A DNA stretch of 64,000 bases, from contig NZ_PVUE01000011.1 of the NCBI RefSeq assembly GCF_003003235.1, forward strand, positions 62,001-126,000, read 5' to 3'. The position numbers and the translations under genes were made by a program. Numbering within the stretch: the first letter of the stretch is position 1; each line of letters begins with the position of its first letter. The DNA comes from Antricoccus suffuscus (lineage in GTDB: Bacteria > Actinomycetota > Actinomycetes > Mycobacteriales > Antricoccaceae). Positions 40,269 through 54,908 of this stretch are shown piece after piece. Below the pieces are notes generated by a model that searched no databases, was not told the origin of the DNA, and was given only the letters and a program-made list of their open reading frames with translations.

Positions 40269-40531
40269 GGCCTACGCCCAATCGTCGTCGGATCTTCACC
40301 TATCTGCATCGTCAACCCAATCGGGGTGCGGGTCAATACAGCCGGACCGCCAAGTGTCCGCGGCGCAGCTTTCTCGCGGATCGAGCCGCGACTTGCCGCA
40401 GATGGCGAGACATTCGTGACGGATCGGCCAACGGGTGTCGCGCTGAGCGGCGTAACGGGGCGCACGCGGATGCAGCCCCGGGCGTTGGCTAAGTTAGTCG
40501 GCAATGATCAACGCGTCGATAAGGGGTGTCA

Positions 40532-49397: not shown

Positions 49398-50363
49398 ATG
49401 CGAGAGCTACCGCGTACGCGTAACCCGCGCTCGAATTCACACAAAGTGGTCATTCCGGCCGCCGGTTTAGGGACCCGCTTCCTGCCCGCGACCAAAGCGG
49501 TGCCCAAGGAGTTGCTGCCGATCGTCGACACGCCTGCTTTGCAGTACATCGTCGAAGAGGCCGTCGAGGCCGGTCTGGACGAGGTCCTGGTCATCGTCGG
49601 CCGCGGCAAGGAAGCAATCATCGACCACTTCGACCATGCGCCGGAACTCGAGGCGGCGCTCGAGGCCAAGGGCGATCAAGACCGGCTCGACTCGGTGCTC
49701 AAGCCGGCCGAACTCGCCGACCTGCACTTTGTGCGCCAGGGAGCGCCCCGCGGACTCGGCCATGCGGTGCTGTGCGCGGCGCCGTACGTCGGGGACCAAG
49801 TCTTCGCGGTCATGCTCGGCGACGACATCATCGACCCGCGCGACCCGCTGCTCGACCCGATGCTCGAGGTGCAAAAGGCTTATGGCGGTGCCGTGGTCGC
49901 GCTGATGGAGGTGCCGCGCTCGCAGATCTCTATGTACGGCTCCGTCGCGACCGGGATTCTCGACCCCGCGGCCCAGGTCACGCTCGGGCAGTCGGTCAGC
50001 GACGTCGTACGAATCACCGATCTGGTGGAGAAGCCTAATCCCGCCGAAGCGCCGAGCAACTTGGCGATCATTGGTCGATATGTGCTGCCGCCGGAAATCT
50101 TCGACGAGCTGCGCCAGACCGAGCCCGGACGCGGCGGGGAAGTGCAGCTGACCGATGCGATGCACCGGCTGGTCGATAAACACATTCCCGTGCACGGCGT
50201 GGTGTTCTCGGGCCGTCGCTACGACACCGGTGACCGCGGCGACTACCTGCGTGCCGTCGTACGCCTTGCGGCCGAGCGTAAGGACCTCGGGCCGAGTTTT
50301 GTCGAGTGGTTGGGCACATTCCTCAAGGAATTCCATGCCGAAAGCGACTCATCTCCGGCATAA
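49398..50363 (+). CDS. galU: UTP-glucose-1-phosphate uridylyltransferase
   Basis: A 321-residue nucleotidyltransferase making UDP-glucose from UTP and glucose-1-phosphate. The N-terminal VVIPAAGLGTRFLPATKAVPKELLPIVDTPALQY holds the nucleotide-binding loop and catalytic Arg/Lys. FVRQGAPRGLGHAVLCA, VMLGDDIIDPRDPLL, ITDLVEKPNPAEAPSNLAIIGRYVLPPEIFDEL and GEVQLTDAMHRL are further hallmarks. ATG at 49398 has GGAG 7 bases upstream and replaces a longer frame. It heads a galU-moeA-rimJ-sepX order also known in mycobacteria. Confidence 0.96.
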   Translation: MRELPRTRNPRSNSHKVVIPAAGLGTRFLPATKAVPKELLPIVDTPALQYIVEEAVEAGLDEVLVIVGRGKEAIIDHFDHAPELEAALEAKGDQDRLDSVLKPAELADLHFVRQGAPRGLGHAVLCAAPYVGDQVFAVMLGDDIIDPRDPLLDPMLEVQKAYGGAVVALMEVPRSQISMYGSVATGILDPAAQVTLGQSVSDVVRITDLVEKPNPAEAPSNLAIIGRYVLPPEIFDELRQTEPGRGGEVQLTDAMHRLVDKHIPVHGVVFSGRRYDTGDRGDYLRAVVRLAAERKDLGPSFVEWLGTFLKEFHAESDSSPA

Positions 50364-50428
50364 ACACGGCCCGGTGAAGCATGATGAGCGGAGAACCTTG
50401 CCCGTAACATCCCCGGAGGCTCCACCAA

Positions 50429-51652
50429 GTGCGCACCGTAGAAGAGCACGTCGACACGATTCTCTCTAGTCTGCCGACGCTAGAAAGCATCGAGCTGGCA
50501 GTTCTGGATGCCCAAGGGTTGCTGTGCGGCGAAGAGGTTGTCTCATCGACGATGTTGCCGGCATTCGACCATTCCTCGATCGACGGGTACGCCGTACGCC
50601 GAGCCGATCTAAAGAATGCCTCGCCGGACGAACCGGCGCATCTGCCGGTAGTCGCCGAAGCCGAGCCAGGTAGCCGTGAGCAGCGCAACGTCTCCCCAGG
50701 TTCGGCTATCCGCATCTTTCCGGGGGCGCTGCTGCCGGGCGGCGCCGACGCCATCGTGCCCCTGGCCTGGACCGACCGCGGCGTCGCGCGAGTCAATGTC
50801 GTACGCTGCCCGCCTGCTGGCGCCTACATCCGTCGGGCCGGCGAAGACGTACAGCCCGGCGACACAGCCGTAAACGTCGGTACGCCGATTGGCCCGGCTC
50901 AGGTCGGTCTGCTGGCGGCCGTAGGCCGAGTGCGAGTCCAGGCACGGCCACGGCCCCGGGTAACAGTGCTCTCGATCGGTAGCGAGCTCGTCGATGTCGG
51001 TACAACGCCCGAGCCGGGCGAGCTCGTCGACGTCAACTCCTTTGCGCTGTCCGCGGCCGCCCGGGACGCCGGCGGCGCGGTGTATCGGGCCGGCTCGGTG
51101 CCGGCCAACCGCGACCGGCTGATGTCCACTCTGGAAGCACAACTACTACGCACCGACCTGCTGATCCTGTCCGGCGGCTTCGCGTCGGGTTCCTTCGACG
51201 TAGTCAGTGAGTGCCTGTCCGAGCTTGGCCAGGTCGAGTACAGCCGGGTGGCGATGCAGCCCGGGATGCCGCAAGGGTTCGGGGTGATCGGCGAGCGCGA
51301 GGTGCCGGTGATCTGCCTGCCCAACGACCCGGTGAGCGCGCTGGTGTCCTTTGAGGTTTTCGCGCGTCCGGCGATCCGGCACATGTTGGGCAAGAAGCGG
51401 TTGTTCCGGCCGATGACCAAGGCCGCTGCGACCGAACATCTCAACAGCCCCGCGGGGCGCAAACAGTTTCGCCGCGGTCTGCTGATGCGTCACCCAGACG
51501 GCGGCTACGTCGTCTCGCCGGTCGGTGGCGCCGGGGCACACCTGCTGTTCTCCATGGCGCAGGCCAACTGCCTGATCGTGATCCCCGAAGATGTCACTGA
51601 GGTGACCGAGGGCGCCAACGTCTCGGTCATGCCTCTCGTTCTCGGCTCTTAG
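50429..51652 (+). CDS. moeA: Molybdopterin molybdenumtransferase MoeA-like (Glp)
   Basis: A 407-residue MoeA/gephyrin-type protein inserting molybdate into adenylylated molybdopterin. Domains: N-terminal MoeA (SSTMLPAFDHSSIDGYAVR), then the central MoCF domain with VTVLSIGSELVDVG, GELVDVNSFALSAAARDAGG and LILSGGFASGSFDVV (the family GGxSxG region reads GGFASG), and a C-terminal barrel. FGVIGEREVPVICLPNDPVSALVSFEVFARPAI is the typical end of the central domain. The GTG at 50429 has GGAGG 9 bases upstream. It follows galU, as in mycobacteria where the gene is named moeA1/glp. In corynebacteria and Streptomyces relatives, Glp links to SepX/GlpR in division, so a divisome rather than cofactor role is possible; this is inference. 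Confidence 0.93.
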   Translation: MRTVEEHVDTILSSLPTLESIELAVLDAQGLLCGEEVVSSTMLPAFDHSSIDGYAVRRADLKNASPDEPAHLPVVAEAEPGSREQRNVSPGSAIRIFPGALLPGGADAIVPLAWTDRGVARVNVVRCPPAGAYIRRAGEDVQPGDTAVNVGTPIGPAQVGLLAAVGRVRVQARPRPRVTVLSIGSELVDVGTTPEPGELVDVNSFALSAAARDAGGAVYRAGSVPANRDRLMSTLEAQLLRTDLLILSGGFASGSFDVVSECLSELGQVEYSRVAMQPGMPQGFGVIGEREVPVICLPNDPVSALVSFEVFARPAIRHMLGKKRLFRPMTKAAATEHLNSPAGRKQFRRGLLMRHPDGGYVVSPVGGAGAHLLFSMAQANCLIVIPEDVTEVTEGANVSVMPLVLGS

Positions 51653-51677
51653 ATCCCTCACGCAGCGGGATTCAGCC

Positions 51678-52280
51678 ATGTCCGGACTACACCCTGGATG
51701 GCCGGCCACTCTCACTAGTGGATCGGTGTGCTTGCGCCCTATCAAGGCGCGCGACTTCGCCGCGTGGCGCGAGGTGCGGCTGCGCAATGAAGCGTGGCTG
51801 GCGCGGTGGGAGCCGACCTCGGCGCAGAGCTGGACCGACCGGCACACGTTCTCGTCGTTCATGTGGCAGCGCGGCGAGATGCGCCGGGCTGCTCGCGACG
51901 GCATGGCGATGCCGTTCGTGATGTGTGTCGACGGCAAGCTCGCCGGACAGGTCAATGTCGGGCCGATCTTGCGCGGACCACTGTGCTCGGGCGACATCGG
52001 CTACTGGATCGATGAGAAGTACGCCGGACGCGGGTTGATGCCGCAGGCCGTCGCGATGGCGACGTTGCACGCGCTCGGCGAGGGCCGGCTGCACCGGGTG
52101 GCCGCCGTCGTACGTCCGGAAAACGCCGCGTCATTGAGGGTGGTGGAGAAGGTCGGGTTTCGTCGCGAAGGAGAATTGAAAAACTACCTGGACATCGACG
52201 GGGCGTGGCGTGACCATGTCGCGTTCGCGTTCACTGTCGAAGACGATCGTGCGGCTCTCACTGCCATCGCCGCTGGCTAG
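51678..52280 (+). CDS. GNAT-family N-acetyltransferase (RimJ-like)
   Basis: A 200-residue acetyltransferase. Typical elements are VCLRPIKARDFAAWREVRLRNEAWLARWEP, the DIGYWIDEKYAGRGLMPQAVAMATLHAL acetyl-CoA-binding region (Q/RxxGxG/A-like loop in YAGRGL), and VVRPENAASLRVVEKVGFRREGELKNYLDIDGAWRDHV. It matches the RimJ/RimL group acetylating protein N-termini. The 3' end is at the start of a 21-bp tandem repeat array; the last base of the stop overlaps the first repeat. Rv0995 is the syntenic mycobacterial homologue. Confidence 0.92.
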   Translation: MSGLHPGWPATLTSGSVCLRPIKARDFAAWREVRLRNEAWLARWEPTSAQSWTDRHTFSSFMWQRGEMRRAARDGMAMPFVMCVDGKLAGQVNVGPILRGPLCSGDIGYWIDEKYAGRGLMPQAVAMATLHALGEGRLHRVAAVVRPENAASLRVVEKVGFRREGELKNYLDIDGAWRDHVAFAFTVEDDRAALTAIAAG

Positions 52281-52405
52281 GGCCGTCCGTCACGAATGTC
52301 GGGCCGTCCGTCACGAATGTCCGCTCGTCCGTCACGAATGTCGGGCCGTCCGTCACGAATGTCCGCTCGTCCGTCACGAATGTCGGGCCGTCCGTCACGA
52401 ATGTC
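52280..52405. repeat. Six 21-bp tandem repeats in the rimJ-sepX spacer
   Basis: Six units (52280-52300, 52301-52321, 52322-52342, 52343-52363, 52364-52384, 52385-52405) share GTCCGTCACGAATGTC exactly. The first five bases vary as GGGCC, GGGCC, CGCTC, GGGCC, CGCTC, GGGCC, so the last four form 42-bp couplets. No spacers of variable sequence exist, so this is not a CRISPR. The array ends 97 bases before the sepX start. It could be a minisatellite-like regulatory or structural element. Confidence 0.95.
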
Positions 52406-52501
52406 CGTCGATCCGCGGCGCGTCCGGCGCGCCTGACAGCCGCGCCCTGACCACACCGTTAACTTAGTTACTGGCGTGACAGATGTGACGGGAGGTGACT
52501 C

Positions 52502-53422
52502 ATGGGATCCGGTGTATTTCTTGCCGTGGTAGTGGTGATGTGGTTCGTCGTCCTCGTTCCCATGGTCCTGACCCGGCGTGATGCTGCGATGGAGAAAGCC
52601 GCAGGAGACAACCTTTCACCTTCCGCCCGCGTACTTACGCGGCGTACCGGCTCCGTGAGCGCGAGCCGGGTATCTAGGAGGAAATCCACCATGAGTCTTA
52701 GCGAGTCTTCCCCCTCGCTGGCAGCCGAGCAGGACGGTGCCGAGGATGCGTACGACGGTGCCCCTGAGGTGGCCGAGTACTTCGATGACATGGTCGATAC
52801 CGGCGTACACGAGCGGTACGTCGACGACGTGGATGGGGCCGACGTACACGCGTCGGATGTGCAGGTCGTGCGTGATCATGCACGCACCGACAGTGCGCGC
52901 GAGAAAATGCTTGAGCGACGTCGGCGCACTCTGATCACGCTCGCGGTTGTCGTAGTCCTTTGCCTCGTGCTTGCTGTAGTTGTCTCGCCATGGCTATGGG
53001 TGCCGACCGCGGTCTTCGGCGCCATGAGTGCCGGCTATCTGTGGCACCTGCGCGGCGAGGCTCGCCGCGAAGAGGAACGCCGACTGACCCGCGCGGCGCG
53101 TGCCAACCGGTCGCGTCGTACCACCGGCTTCGAGACTCGCCACTCCGACGGCATCCGGACCTCGTACGCCGCGGGTGCCTACACGGCTCCCGAGTCCATC
53201 GATCAGGACGTCGTCAGCCTCGATGACGAGGACGTCGCATTCTACGATCTGGCCAATGCGCCAGTCGCCGACAACGTGGACCTGAGCGGACACGAGTACT
53301 ACGCCGACGGTGCCGTCGATCCCGAATACGACTACGACGATGACGCATACGGCATTCACACGACGTCGGCCGTGGACGAGTACGACGAAGAGACCGGCTG
53401 GGATATCCCGAAGGGCGCCTAG
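52502..53422 (+). CDS. Divisome protein SepX/GlpR-like membrane protein
   Basis: A 306-residue protein. TM1 at the N-terminus (MGSGVFLAVVVVMWFVVLVPMVL) is followed by a basic patch and an acidic linker (AEDAYDGAPEVAEYFDDMVD). Two close TM helices follow (LITLAVVVVLCLVLAVVVSPWLWVPTAVFGAMSAGYLWHL). The C-terminal tail is basic then acidic, with Asp/Tyr-rich repeats (DPEYDYDDDAYG). This layout, and the galU-moeA-rimJ order before it, match SepX of Streptomyces/GlpR of corynebacteria, cell division proteins. ATG has GGGAGG 7 bases upstream. Assignment rests on architecture plus synteny. Confidence 0.82.
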   Translation: MGSGVFLAVVVVMWFVVLVPMVLTRRDAAMEKAAGDNLSPSARVLTRRTGSVSASRVSRRKSTMSLSESSPSLAAEQDGAEDAYDGAPEVAEYFDDMVDTGVHERYVDDVDGADVHASDVQVVRDHARTDSAREKMLERRRRTLITLAVVVVLCLVLAVVVSPWLWVPTAVFGAMSAGYLWHLRGEARREEERRLTRAARANRSRRTTGFETRHSDGIRTSYAAGAYTAPESIDQDVVSLDDEDVAFYDLANAPVADNVDLSGHEYYADGAVDPEYDYDDDAYGIHTTSAVDEYDEETGWDIPKGA

Positions 53423-53426
53423 GCTC

Positions 53427-54266
53427 CTAGATGTCGACGGATCCCTCGATCCGGGTCGTGCAGTAGCCGCCGACCCAGATATCTGCGCCGTCGTCCTCGA
53501 TGTGGATCCGGCCCGTCCGGCCGATTGCGGTGCCTTGCGCGGCGACGTACGACGAGTTAGCTAGACCTTCGGATCGCAGCCACTGAGCCAGTCCGGCGTT
53601 GAGGCTTCCGGTGACCGGGTCCTCCGGGACACCATGCGCCGGGGCGAAAGCTCGCACCTCGAAGTCGACATCGCGCGAGTTGTCGTCCATCCCGGCGTAC
53701 GGTCCAATCACCCCGATCGCGAGATCGCCCATTGCGGCGAAGTCCGGAACGATATCCAGCACCCGCTGAGCCGATCCGAGCATGACGGCGGCCCAGCCCG
53801 GCCCGTTGTCGACCCACTGATGCCCGATCACGTCGCGACGTTCGATTCCCAGCCCGCCGGCTATCTGCGCGACTAGAGCCTCGTCGAGCAGACCGGAACG
53901 CGACAGTGGAGGAGCGGCGAACGCAAGTCGGTCGGCGTACTGCTTGATCCGGACCAGCCCGGCGCCGCATTCCTGGACGATGTAGTCACTGTGCTCACCG
54001 CCGTTGCGCAGCCACGCGTGCGCGCTGCCGAGGGTGGGATGTCCGGCGAAGGGAAGCTCGCCCGTGGGCGTGAAGATCCGCAAACGGTAATCCGCGTGGC
54101 GGTTGGACGGAGGCAGCACGAACGTCGTCTCAGACAGGTTGGTCCATCTCGCGAACGCCTGCATCTGCTCGTCCGTCAATTCATCGGCGTCCAGGACCAC
54201 CGCCACCGGATTTCCCTTGTACGGCGTGGAAGTGAAGACATCGACCTGCTGGAATGCTCGTTGCAT
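53427..54266 (-). CDS. PhzF-family isomerase/epimerase
   Basis: A 279-residue PhzF-like protein of the diaminopimelate-epimerase fold. Visible family signatures are FQQVDVFTSTPYKGNPVAVVLDA, LSETTFVLPPSN, LRIFTPTGELPFAGHPTLGSAHAWL (with the catalytic Glu in the SETTF segment), and FAPAHGVPEDPVTGSLNAGLAQWL. The start ATG at 54266 abuts the stop of the VOC gene (TAG-ATG), giving translational coupling. The 3' end is convergent with sepX, 4 bp apart. The substrate is unknown; phenazine genes are absent, so this is an orphan of the family. Confidence 0.93.
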   Translation of the reverse strand: MQRAFQQVDVFTSTPYKGNPVAVVLDADELTDEQMQAFARWTNLSETTFVLPPSNRHADYRLRIFTPTGELPFAGHPTLGSAHAWLRNGGEHSDYIVQECGAGLVRIKQYADRLAFAAPPLSRSGLLDEALVAQIAGGLGIERRDVIGHQWVDNGPGWAAVMLGSAQRVLDIVPDFAAMGDLAIGVIGPYAGMDDNSRDVDFEVRAFAPAHGVPEDPVTGSLNAGLAQWLRSEGLANSSYVAAQGTAIGRTGRIHIEDDGADIWVGGYCTTRIEGSVDI

Positions 54267-54908
54267 CTAGATCTCGACAGTTCCTGCGGGACCACGCAGC
54301 GTTGCGTGGAGGCCAGCCGGGCCGTCGCCGACGGTGATCTGGACGCCCAGCGCGCGCAGCAACTCGGTGACCTGTTCATGGGCGGGCGAGCTGAGAGTGA
54401 GCGTCTCGAGACGCGCGGCCGGGACGCCGCCTGCCGGATGTGGCGAGGTGCCCCAGTCGATGATGAACGGCGCGAGCCCGTCGTACGGCGCTGCGTCTGC
54501 CGAGGCGAGCCGCCAGCTCAGCTCGTTGCCCTTCGCGTCGACGCGGGACATCGCGAACAGGTCGCCGTGGTCCGCGCCGTACTGCCTGCTCGCCTTGAGC
54601 GCCGCGCCCGCGTCGGTCGGGTGGATGGCCCACGTAATCAGCCGGTCCTGATCGAGTACGTCGAGACCAAACGAGACCCGTTTCCCTTCTGCAACTGGAT
54701 TCTCGCGATCCAGAGCGATGACCTCGAGGTAGGACGTGGGCGAGAGACCCAGCAGGTAGTTGCGGGTCCCGCGGCCGACGTGCCGGCCGCCTTCGACCGG
54801 TCTCACACCGGTGGCGTCCGCGATCCGGTCGACGGCTGCCTTGAGGTCGAGTACGCCGTACACCAGGTGATCGATCAGATGAGCAGGGTCAAACTCTTCA
54901 CTGGTCAT
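54267..54908 (-). CDS. VOC/glyoxalase-like domain protein
   Basis: A 213-residue protein of the Glyoxalase_3/VOC type. The strand-helix pattern LIDHLVYGVLDLKAAVDRIADATGVRPVEGGRHVGRGTRNYLLGLSPTSYLEVIALD is the typical first VOC module; a second half includes RLETLTLSSPAHEQVTELLRALGV. The His of the metal-like site is in HLVYG. ATG at 54908 is chosen over TTG 54914 because TAGGGT sits exactly 6 bases upstream, a leaderless pattern. It is followed at once by the PhzF gene. No substrate is known for this subgroup. Confidence 0.85.
   Translation of the reverse strand: MTSEEFDPAHLIDHLVYGVLDLKAAVDRIADATGVRPVEGGRHVGRGTRNYLLGLSPTSYLEVIALDRENPVAEGKRVSFGLDVLDQDRLITWAIHPTDAGAALKASRQYGADHGDLFAMSRVDAKGNELSWRLASADAAPYDGLAPFIIDWGTSPHPAGGVPAARLETLTLSSPAHEQVTELLRALGVQITVGDGPAGLHATLRGPAGTVEI

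Follow-up and report, generated by a model that had tools for sequence, protein, structure and literature searches.

Tandem repeats of 21 bp between rimJ and sepX of Antricoccus suffuscus and the placement of their family relative to stop codons

The tandem array between a rimJ-like gene and sepX of Antricoccus suffuscus may well belong to a genome-wide, mostly non-coding, REP-like family of locally expanding tandem repeats (satellites) located mainly at gene 3′ ends, and this reading is offered as a tentative one. The arrays of the family share a core, dock in the sense orientation at TAA and TAG stop codons above random expectation, are enriched in convergent and depleted in divergent gaps, differ in position between sister genera and are homogenised internally, all of which is directly observed. 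This kind of repeat is already known and unexplained; the finding is the geometry of a satellite family that docks at gene ends.

The array between rimJ and sepX

The window, the 64,000-nucleotide stretch of contig NZ_PVUE01000011.1 that was analysed, contains the array at 52280-52405 as six 21-bp units, each consisting of a 5-bp head and an exact GTCCGTCACGAATGTC (Table 1). The original prediction had claimed six exact 16-mer units, and six copies of GTCCGTCACGAATGTC at 21-bp spacing (52285-52405) confirm it. Its alternating heads, GGGCC and CGCTC, were also found, with the alternation spanning units 2-6 and Tandem Repeats Finder (TRF) reporting both period 21 (6.0 copies) and period 42 (3.1 copies) at 97% matches. 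The longest self-match run is 69 at lag 21 and 82 at lag 42, compared with at most 15 at any lag from 15 to 49 in 200 base shuffles of window 50001-54500, which excludes a chance origin of the array. The array ends with an incomplete unit, as do many other arrays of the family.

The array had been placed at the rimJ stop with zero gap and 97 bp before sepX. It does abut the stop, overlapping it by one base (the G of the TAG at 52278-52280), and it does lie upstream of sepX, at a distance of 96 bases from the ATG at 52502. The best NCBIfam match of the rimJ-like protein is the ribosomal protein S5-alanine acetyltransferase RimJ, at 86.1 bits and under the model cut-off of 190, and the identity of SepX is given by 123.7 bits against a cut-off of 110. 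Neither strand of the array folds better than dinucleotide shuffles (z 1.09 and -0.11). Rfam covariance models gave no match at E ≤1 in window 51600-53000, and a consensus search of window 52100-52700 gave neither an intrinsic terminator nor a sigma-70 promoter. The units contain no stop words, and a putative 85-aa ORF (window 52210-52467, + strand) spans the array as VRHEC repeats.

Table 1. Features of the window around the array (window positions)
Feature	Position	Strand	Remark
rimJ-like GNAT acetyltransferase gene	51678..52280	+	PF13302; TAG stop abutted by array
Unit 1, head GGGCC	52280..52300	+	first base is the final base of the rimJ TAG stop
Unit 2, head GGGCC	52301..52321	+	
Unit 3, head CGCTC	52322..52342	+	
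Unit 4, head GGGCC	52343..52363	+	
Unit 5, head CGCTC	52364..52384	+	
Unit 6, head GGGCC	52385..52405	+	
Partial unit CGTCGATCCG	52406..52415	+	
sepX leader block GTGACAGATGTGACGGGAGG	52476..52495	+	similar in G001-G004
sepX (SepX/GlpR divisome protein)	52502..53422	+	NCBIfam NF050101
Isolated single unit of the 21-bp family	40409..40424	-	one mismatch

The repeat family in the A. suffuscus genome

The A. suffuscus genome (G000; 4.68 Mb in 43 contigs) holds 36 exact copies of the 16-mer and 140 copies within two mismatches, against 0 and 2 for the reversed control, and a BLAST search with the window array gave at least 42 matches (40 of the 56 candidates scored). A related 15-mer search at one mismatch counted 130 matches in A. 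suffuscus, 1-4 matches in 15 of 60 relatives and 0 in four genomes of the same family. In the sample studied in detail, the window plus fetched stretches mostly around known hits (743,446 bases), a position weight matrix (PWM) scan returned 207 units versus 2 in the reversed sequence. These units chain into 68 arrays or single units, of which 48 have at least two units and 26 at least four; the 20 single units were left out of the array statistics. Spacing is 21 or 22 in nearly all chains, and the second length class, 22 bp, carries the same core (ATCCGTCACAAAATNCC and relatives). Within the 16-mer, TCCGTC, C9 and A12 are present in 201-206 of the 207 units and A8 in 185; a purine occupies position 1 in 205, while positions 10, 11 and 13-15 are more variable. 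TCCGTC is far more constant than the 5-bp heads, which recur within and between arrays, so that the unique spacers of CRISPR are not found here. Overlap with called genes is 30 bp or less in 43 of the 48 arrays, which marks them as non-coding, and a stop word occurs in 21 of 193 units.

The 39 arrays with three or more units (175 units in all) have a mean unit identity of 0.846 within and 0.758 between arrays, as would be expected if arrays expand and homogenise locally; the recent expansion or conversion put forward in the original prediction is supported by this difference. In the ten-unit array at G000:C14:104431-104662, the order of four earlier units recurs in the final four, on the other side of an irregular 48-bp step, a pattern like that of block-wise amplification. 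A second dispersed repeat was observed as well, a palindrome reaching about 260-320 bp in length that was matched on both strands in most copies; it occurs at 20 loci of the fetched stretches (e.g., G000:C19:74109-74389, locus L074; C3:81521-81815; C21:92729-93050), in 15 of which it is flanked by an array or a single unit. In addition, four contig ends share IS-like ends inside array units (GGTGAATTCAAGGGGTGG... at the end of C35 and the start of C11; ...CCTTGACCGCACAG at the starts of C7 and C34), with the junction at or near CCGTC/ACG, which suggests that an IS uses the repeat as its target and interrupts the assembly at these points.

Placement at stop codons in two sister genera

Placement was analysed in A. 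suffuscus and in G001, a single-contig assembly from another genus of the same family, sampled over 800 kb (33 regions chosen at listed arrays and 8 stretches at fixed places). Genes were called by our own codon-usage script, of which start codons are the weakest part. An array was counted as docked when it started no earlier than 25 bp before, and no later than 15 bp after, the end of a sense stop codon, and the null was random placement and orientation within the same gaps. The A. suffuscus set comprised 36 arrays, after 5 of the 48 had been dropped for overlapping genes and 7 for having no called gene on one side. For G001, 43 distinct intergenic arrays with three or more units and genes on both sides were used; 18 of 74 chains had been dropped for gene overlap, followed by chains with fewer than three units or overlapping another. 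Docking was found for 20 of 36 arrays in A. suffuscus against 5.6 expected (sd 1.5, maximum 13 in 10,000 placements), and for 33 of 43 in G001 against 17.3 (sd 2.0, maximum 25 in 5,000). It arises in part because tail-to-tail gaps are short, the median of those without arrays being 34.5 bp in A. suffuscus and 20 bp in G001. Of 23 docked A. suffuscus arrays, 22 follow the stop or share one base with it, and one holds it inside the first unit; for three convergent genes, the stop is supplied by the distal end of an array (C4:157079, C3:30981 and C2:288454).

The arrays also favour particular gaps. The 36 arrays of A. suffuscus divide into 17 convergent, 10 codirectional sense, 5 codirectional antisense and 4 divergent cases. 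Measured against gaps of at least 60 bp, a baseline that includes the array-bearing gaps, convergent positions are enriched in A. suffuscus (17/36 versus 48/346, p 8e-6) and in G001 (16/43 versus 64/377, p 0.003), and divergent positions are depleted in both (4/36 versus 102/346, p 0.019; 5/43 versus 116/377, p 0.007). The ratio of codirectional sense to antisense arrays is 27:10 when both genera are pooled (p 0.008) and 10:5, which is not significant, in A. suffuscus alone (p 0.30). Pairs of arrays that face each other are directed inward five times (two overlapping) and outward once in G001, and once and never, respectively, in A. suffuscus; near 260.8, 1548.3 and 3165.1 kb of G001, such pairs face each other 2 bp apart and form long inverted repeats.

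The identity of the docked stop codon differs from that of genes at large. Docked stops are TAA in 12, TAG in 9 and TGA in 2 cases in A. suffuscus (143, 238 and 225 among all called genes), and 31, 3 and 0 in G001 (124, 292 and 307), so that TAA or TAG (TAR) stands to TGA as 21:2 (p 0.003) and 34:0 (p 5e-9), where the G001 set of 56 rows includes one non-docked array twice (162292/162309) and some chance GATCCG pairs. At non-docked arrays, TAR lies within 15 bp upstream in 2 of 25 cases in A. suffuscus and 2 of 22 in G001. At fourteen G001 junctions of distance -1, TAA is followed by CCGCGATCC or a sequence close to it. At eight others (-19 to -6), the array itself supplies the stop, which lies in the first unit in five cases and in the head of that unit in three. 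Where at least one member of an ortholog pair has an array (12 pairs), the two C-termini lie within 6 residues of each other, which argues against large truncation by the arrays; in the 11 of these pairs with an array in one genome only, the ortholog lacking it ends in TGA or TAG in 10. The stop data fit landing at, or selection for, TAA and TAG, and the preference could reflect selection against readthrough instead of a landing rule.

Sequence and position both turn over between the genera. At the rimJ-sepX site, the G001 array is built from another 21-22-bp unit (CGCCGATCCGAACGTTAATCC and CGCGATCCGAGAGATGTTGCA) and includes the rimJ stop; no array lies between the two genes in G002, G003 and G004 (gaps of 118, 112 and 124 bp). 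A leader block like GTGACAGATGTGACGGGAGG is present in all four, three of which have no array at the site. The units of G001 and A. suffuscus are alike only in GATCCG, which occurs three times at 20-22-bp spacing 137 times in G001, 47 times in A. suffuscus, once in G002 and 0 times in nine others (reversed control 0); across the class, the pattern was found in 47 of 393 other genomes and never more than 9 times in one of them (the reversed control was found in 4 genomes). Unit identity in G001 is 0.729 within and 0.704 between arrays (44 arrays), and along the G001 arrays the unit type tends to shift from AACGTTAAT-type first to GAGAGAAA-type last. Positional conservation, which the common rimJ site had hinted at, was rejected using 72 ortholog pairs (144 reciprocal best hits, reduced to 75 by identity and coverage and to 72 by dropping 3 at stretch edges): an array is present in both genomes for rimJ only, in A. 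suffuscus only for 8, in G001 only for 3 and in neither for 60 (p 0.42). With one shared position among 72, the rimJ site seems to be shared by chance or because the place is favoured, and not by common descent.

Beyond the family, tandem 21-bp arrays may be common. A scan of a contig collection for three copies of TCCGTCAC at 20-22-bp spacing, run without a reversed-pattern control, found at least 120 stretches from many phyla and, likewise without control, 4 viral contigs; among the matches listed, 127 arrays were called, 55 of them coding and 72 non-coding. Three copies of CCGTCAC were found in 7 of 395 other genomes of the phylum versus 2 for the reversed control. Given the scans without control and the 7 versus 2 genomes, a shared core is claimed for the read cases only. 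Four further genomes with CCGTCAC-core arrays, which were picked for holding the pattern, show occurrence and not frequency. Arrays start 5-14 bp past a sense stop in 3 of 6 cases in a Nocardioidaceae MAG (left ends such as CCCGCGATCCGTCAC) and 6 and 14 bp past one in 2 of 2 in a Marmoricola MAG, and they lie behind a same-strand gene in 5 of 5 cases (104-426 bp) in a Bacteroidales MAG and in 8 of 12 (7-148 bp) in a Binatia MAG. Four of the five docked Nocardioidaceae and Marmoricola arrays are at TGA. In these two genomes TGA also makes up most called stops (64 of 72 and 25 of 31), and a general TAR preference is therefore not demonstrated. Nor is the sense polarity universal, as Lysinibacillus 21-bp arrays (CTATCCGTCACTTT...; loci such as L093, L142 and L178) are mostly antisense: among the matches listed, an upstream gene was called for 12 non-coding arrays, and 9 of these run antisense to it. 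Candidatus Binatia G463 (OX638375.1) has 54 CCGTCAC triple matches (control 2), and at four of its loci (L115, L116, L120 and L130) the array runs into a hairpin whose 5′ arm opens with the bases of the unit, as if the arrays were an amplified foot of a CGTC-type palindrome.

Explanations of the arrays and comparison with known repeats

We infer a route by which such a family could arise. A short seed with its left end near CCGCGATCCG would land just 3′ of a stop codon, where slippage or unequal exchange would then amplify it, and amplification of two-unit blocks would yield 42-bp couplets. An array at this place would be tolerated because the coding sequence is uncut and the next promoter untouched. 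At the rimJ-sepX locus, the array adds length between rimJ and the sepX leader, and any specific effect on sepX is probably small. A stronger version, of which we are doubtful, is that stop-docked 21-nt satellites are site-preferring elements that settle 3′ of TAA or TAG in the sense orientation via a non-Y1 process, with the geometry (period, docking, polarity and CCGCGATCCG left end) kept and the unit sequence replaced genome-wide between sister genera. If true, such a class would provide the first general rule for the location of the "enigmatic" 20-23-nt bacterial repeats.

The arrays could instead be transcript-end elements in which ribosome-free, C-biased and weakly folded RNA past the stop loads Rho and acts as a unidirectional terminator, a reading that we consider unlikely. 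Compared with post-stop controls (60 each), the arrays (26 of at least four units in A. suffuscus; the first 30 of 34 in G001) have a higher sense C minus G (+0.128 in A. suffuscus and +0.091 in G001 versus 0.011 and 0.001), more YC per nucleotide (0.26 and 0.22 versus 0.150 and 0.147) and a weaker fold (minimum free energy, MFE, per nucleotide -0.236 and -0.184 versus -0.375 and -0.441). In sense excess of C over G, weak structure and placement where ribosomes leave the transcript, they resemble the rut sites of RhoTermPredict as outlined in PMC6407284. The rut rule of that source as outlined there (a 78-nt window with C/G above 1 and a C every 11-13 nt) was re-implemented without the pause-site step and gave mixed results. 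At C/G >1.5, it holds for 22 of 39 sense arrays in A. suffuscus versus 35 of 156 control gene ends (p 7e-5) and for 0 of 39 antisense, and the window array has a sense score of 1.36 (C every 11-13 nt). The mainly inward facing pairs of G001 and a Binatia C/G of at least 2.24 on the CCGTCAC strand in 12 of 12 arrays (12-14-nt spacing) also agree with termination. However, at C/G >1 A. suffuscus does not differ from controls (28/39 versus 93/156, p 0.20), and G001, where docking is sharper, falls below its controls (10/44 versus 105/153, p 7e-8). The result is sensitive to spacing, since at 12-14 nt neither genome has a significant excess and the window array scores 0, and the window array is otherwise ordinary, with a C minus G of 0.048 and the fold z of 1.09 mentioned above. 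The C-rich strand of the Lysinibacillus arrays mostly runs antisense to the upstream gene, and 7 of 22 same-strand downstream genes in G001 are called within 20 bp of the array (with rough starts), which leaves a promoter little space.

Further readings concern proteins that act on the DNA itself. Sites for a nucleoid organiser, an insulator or a roadblock, each unit spanning two helical turns, would accord with the 21-bp period and with the constancy of TCCGTC relative to the heads, and nucleoid-type binding is proposed for 20-21-nt repeats by Subirana and Messeguer in the available text of PMC8161180. We regard this as quite improbable, because 22-bp arrays with the same core coexist with 21-bp arrays, so that helical phasing is not strict, the units of the sister genera differ apart from GATCCG, and neither sense polarity nor stop-codon identity is expected of a DNA-level scaffold; the nucleoid-protein array of the original prediction is favoured by none of our results. 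Insertion of an element 3′ of a YTAR target by a single-strand transposase of the IS200/IS605 or RAYT type would explain the polarity, the flush junction and the TAR preference, but it is extremely improbable: the Y1 transposase model PF01797 matched none of five genomes (G000-G004), while a positive control matched 6 of 14 known genomes, and TAR is rare upstream of non-docked arrays. Regulation of sepX by leader length, promoter strength or antisense transcription, to which the 96-bp distance and the G001 array at the same site could point, is very unlikely. The genome-wide search that had been proposed as a check located the 16-mer at many dispersed sites, the very outcome named in advance as contrary, and a sepX-specific role was rejected, since the family is dispersed and the similar leader block persists in three relatives that have no array. 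The preferred reading of a locally expanding satellite family has its own counterpoints: the non-conserved position could reflect fast turnover of a functional element, given that A. suffuscus arrays resemble rut sites, and the PF01797 search found no mover in G000-G004.

Bacteria with tandem repeats of 20-23 nt are scattered. Two sister genera with large families offer a measurable geometry of flush junctions, stop identity, polarity, and turnover of sequence and position, and this geometry turns a vague question about function into testable ones, namely whether arrays land on or select TAA and TAG and whether transcription ends at them. It also counsels caution, in that VNTR-like arrays beside divisome or other genes need a genome-wide check before they are read as local regulators.

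Among known repeats, MIRU elements are tandem, intergenic and oriented with the flanking genes, and their ends touch stop or start codons; their units are about 46-100 bp long, compared with 21-22 bp here. A 2020 J Bacteriol survey by Subirana and Messeguer reportedly names 22/44-nt and 52-nt classes in its abstract. The arrays share the placement of REPs, being extragenic, mainly 3′ of genes and frequent in convergent gaps. According to the portions of Di Nocera 2013 (PMC3733652) consulted, REPs are mostly downstream of genes and the ends of GTAG REPs often supply a TAG stop, and the GTAG/CGTC REPs described there are likewise extragenic, numerous and located downstream in unidirectional and convergent gaps; the A. 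suffuscus core contains CGTC. In the part of PMC12306157 considered, ribosome stalling is reported for E. coli REPs that lie no more than 15 nt from a stop. Unlike the GTAG/CGTC REPs, which are 20-40-bp palindromes in the same portions of PMC3733652, the window unit is a direct repeat that folds no better than shuffles; the quoted G001 units are without CGTC, and no RAYT-type Y1 transposase was found in G000-G004.

The closest likeness is to the constant-length, species-specific, non-coding tandem repeats of 20-21 and 52 nt, of unknown function, that Subirana and Messeguer describe in the available portions of PMC8161180, PMC6749651 and PMC8625621, and for which nucleoid proteins or small RNAs are suggested (PMC8161180). 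Actinobacteria are named among the holders of 20-23-nt satellites in the sections at hand of PMC6749651 and PMC8161180, and these satellites have, like the arrays, a constant unit of about 21 nt, at least four repeats, an intergenic location and one short signal. The present family has a constant unit, at least four repeats, several arrays and a shared core, and it is species-specific and non-coding. The main text of PMC8161180 contains the words "stop codon" 0 times, and no description of stop docking by 20-23-nt satellites was found in the parts of the literature searched. To the satellite description as given in the available portions of PMC6749651 and PMC8161180, the arrays add stop docking, sense orientation, a preference for TAA and TAG, and turnover between sister genera.
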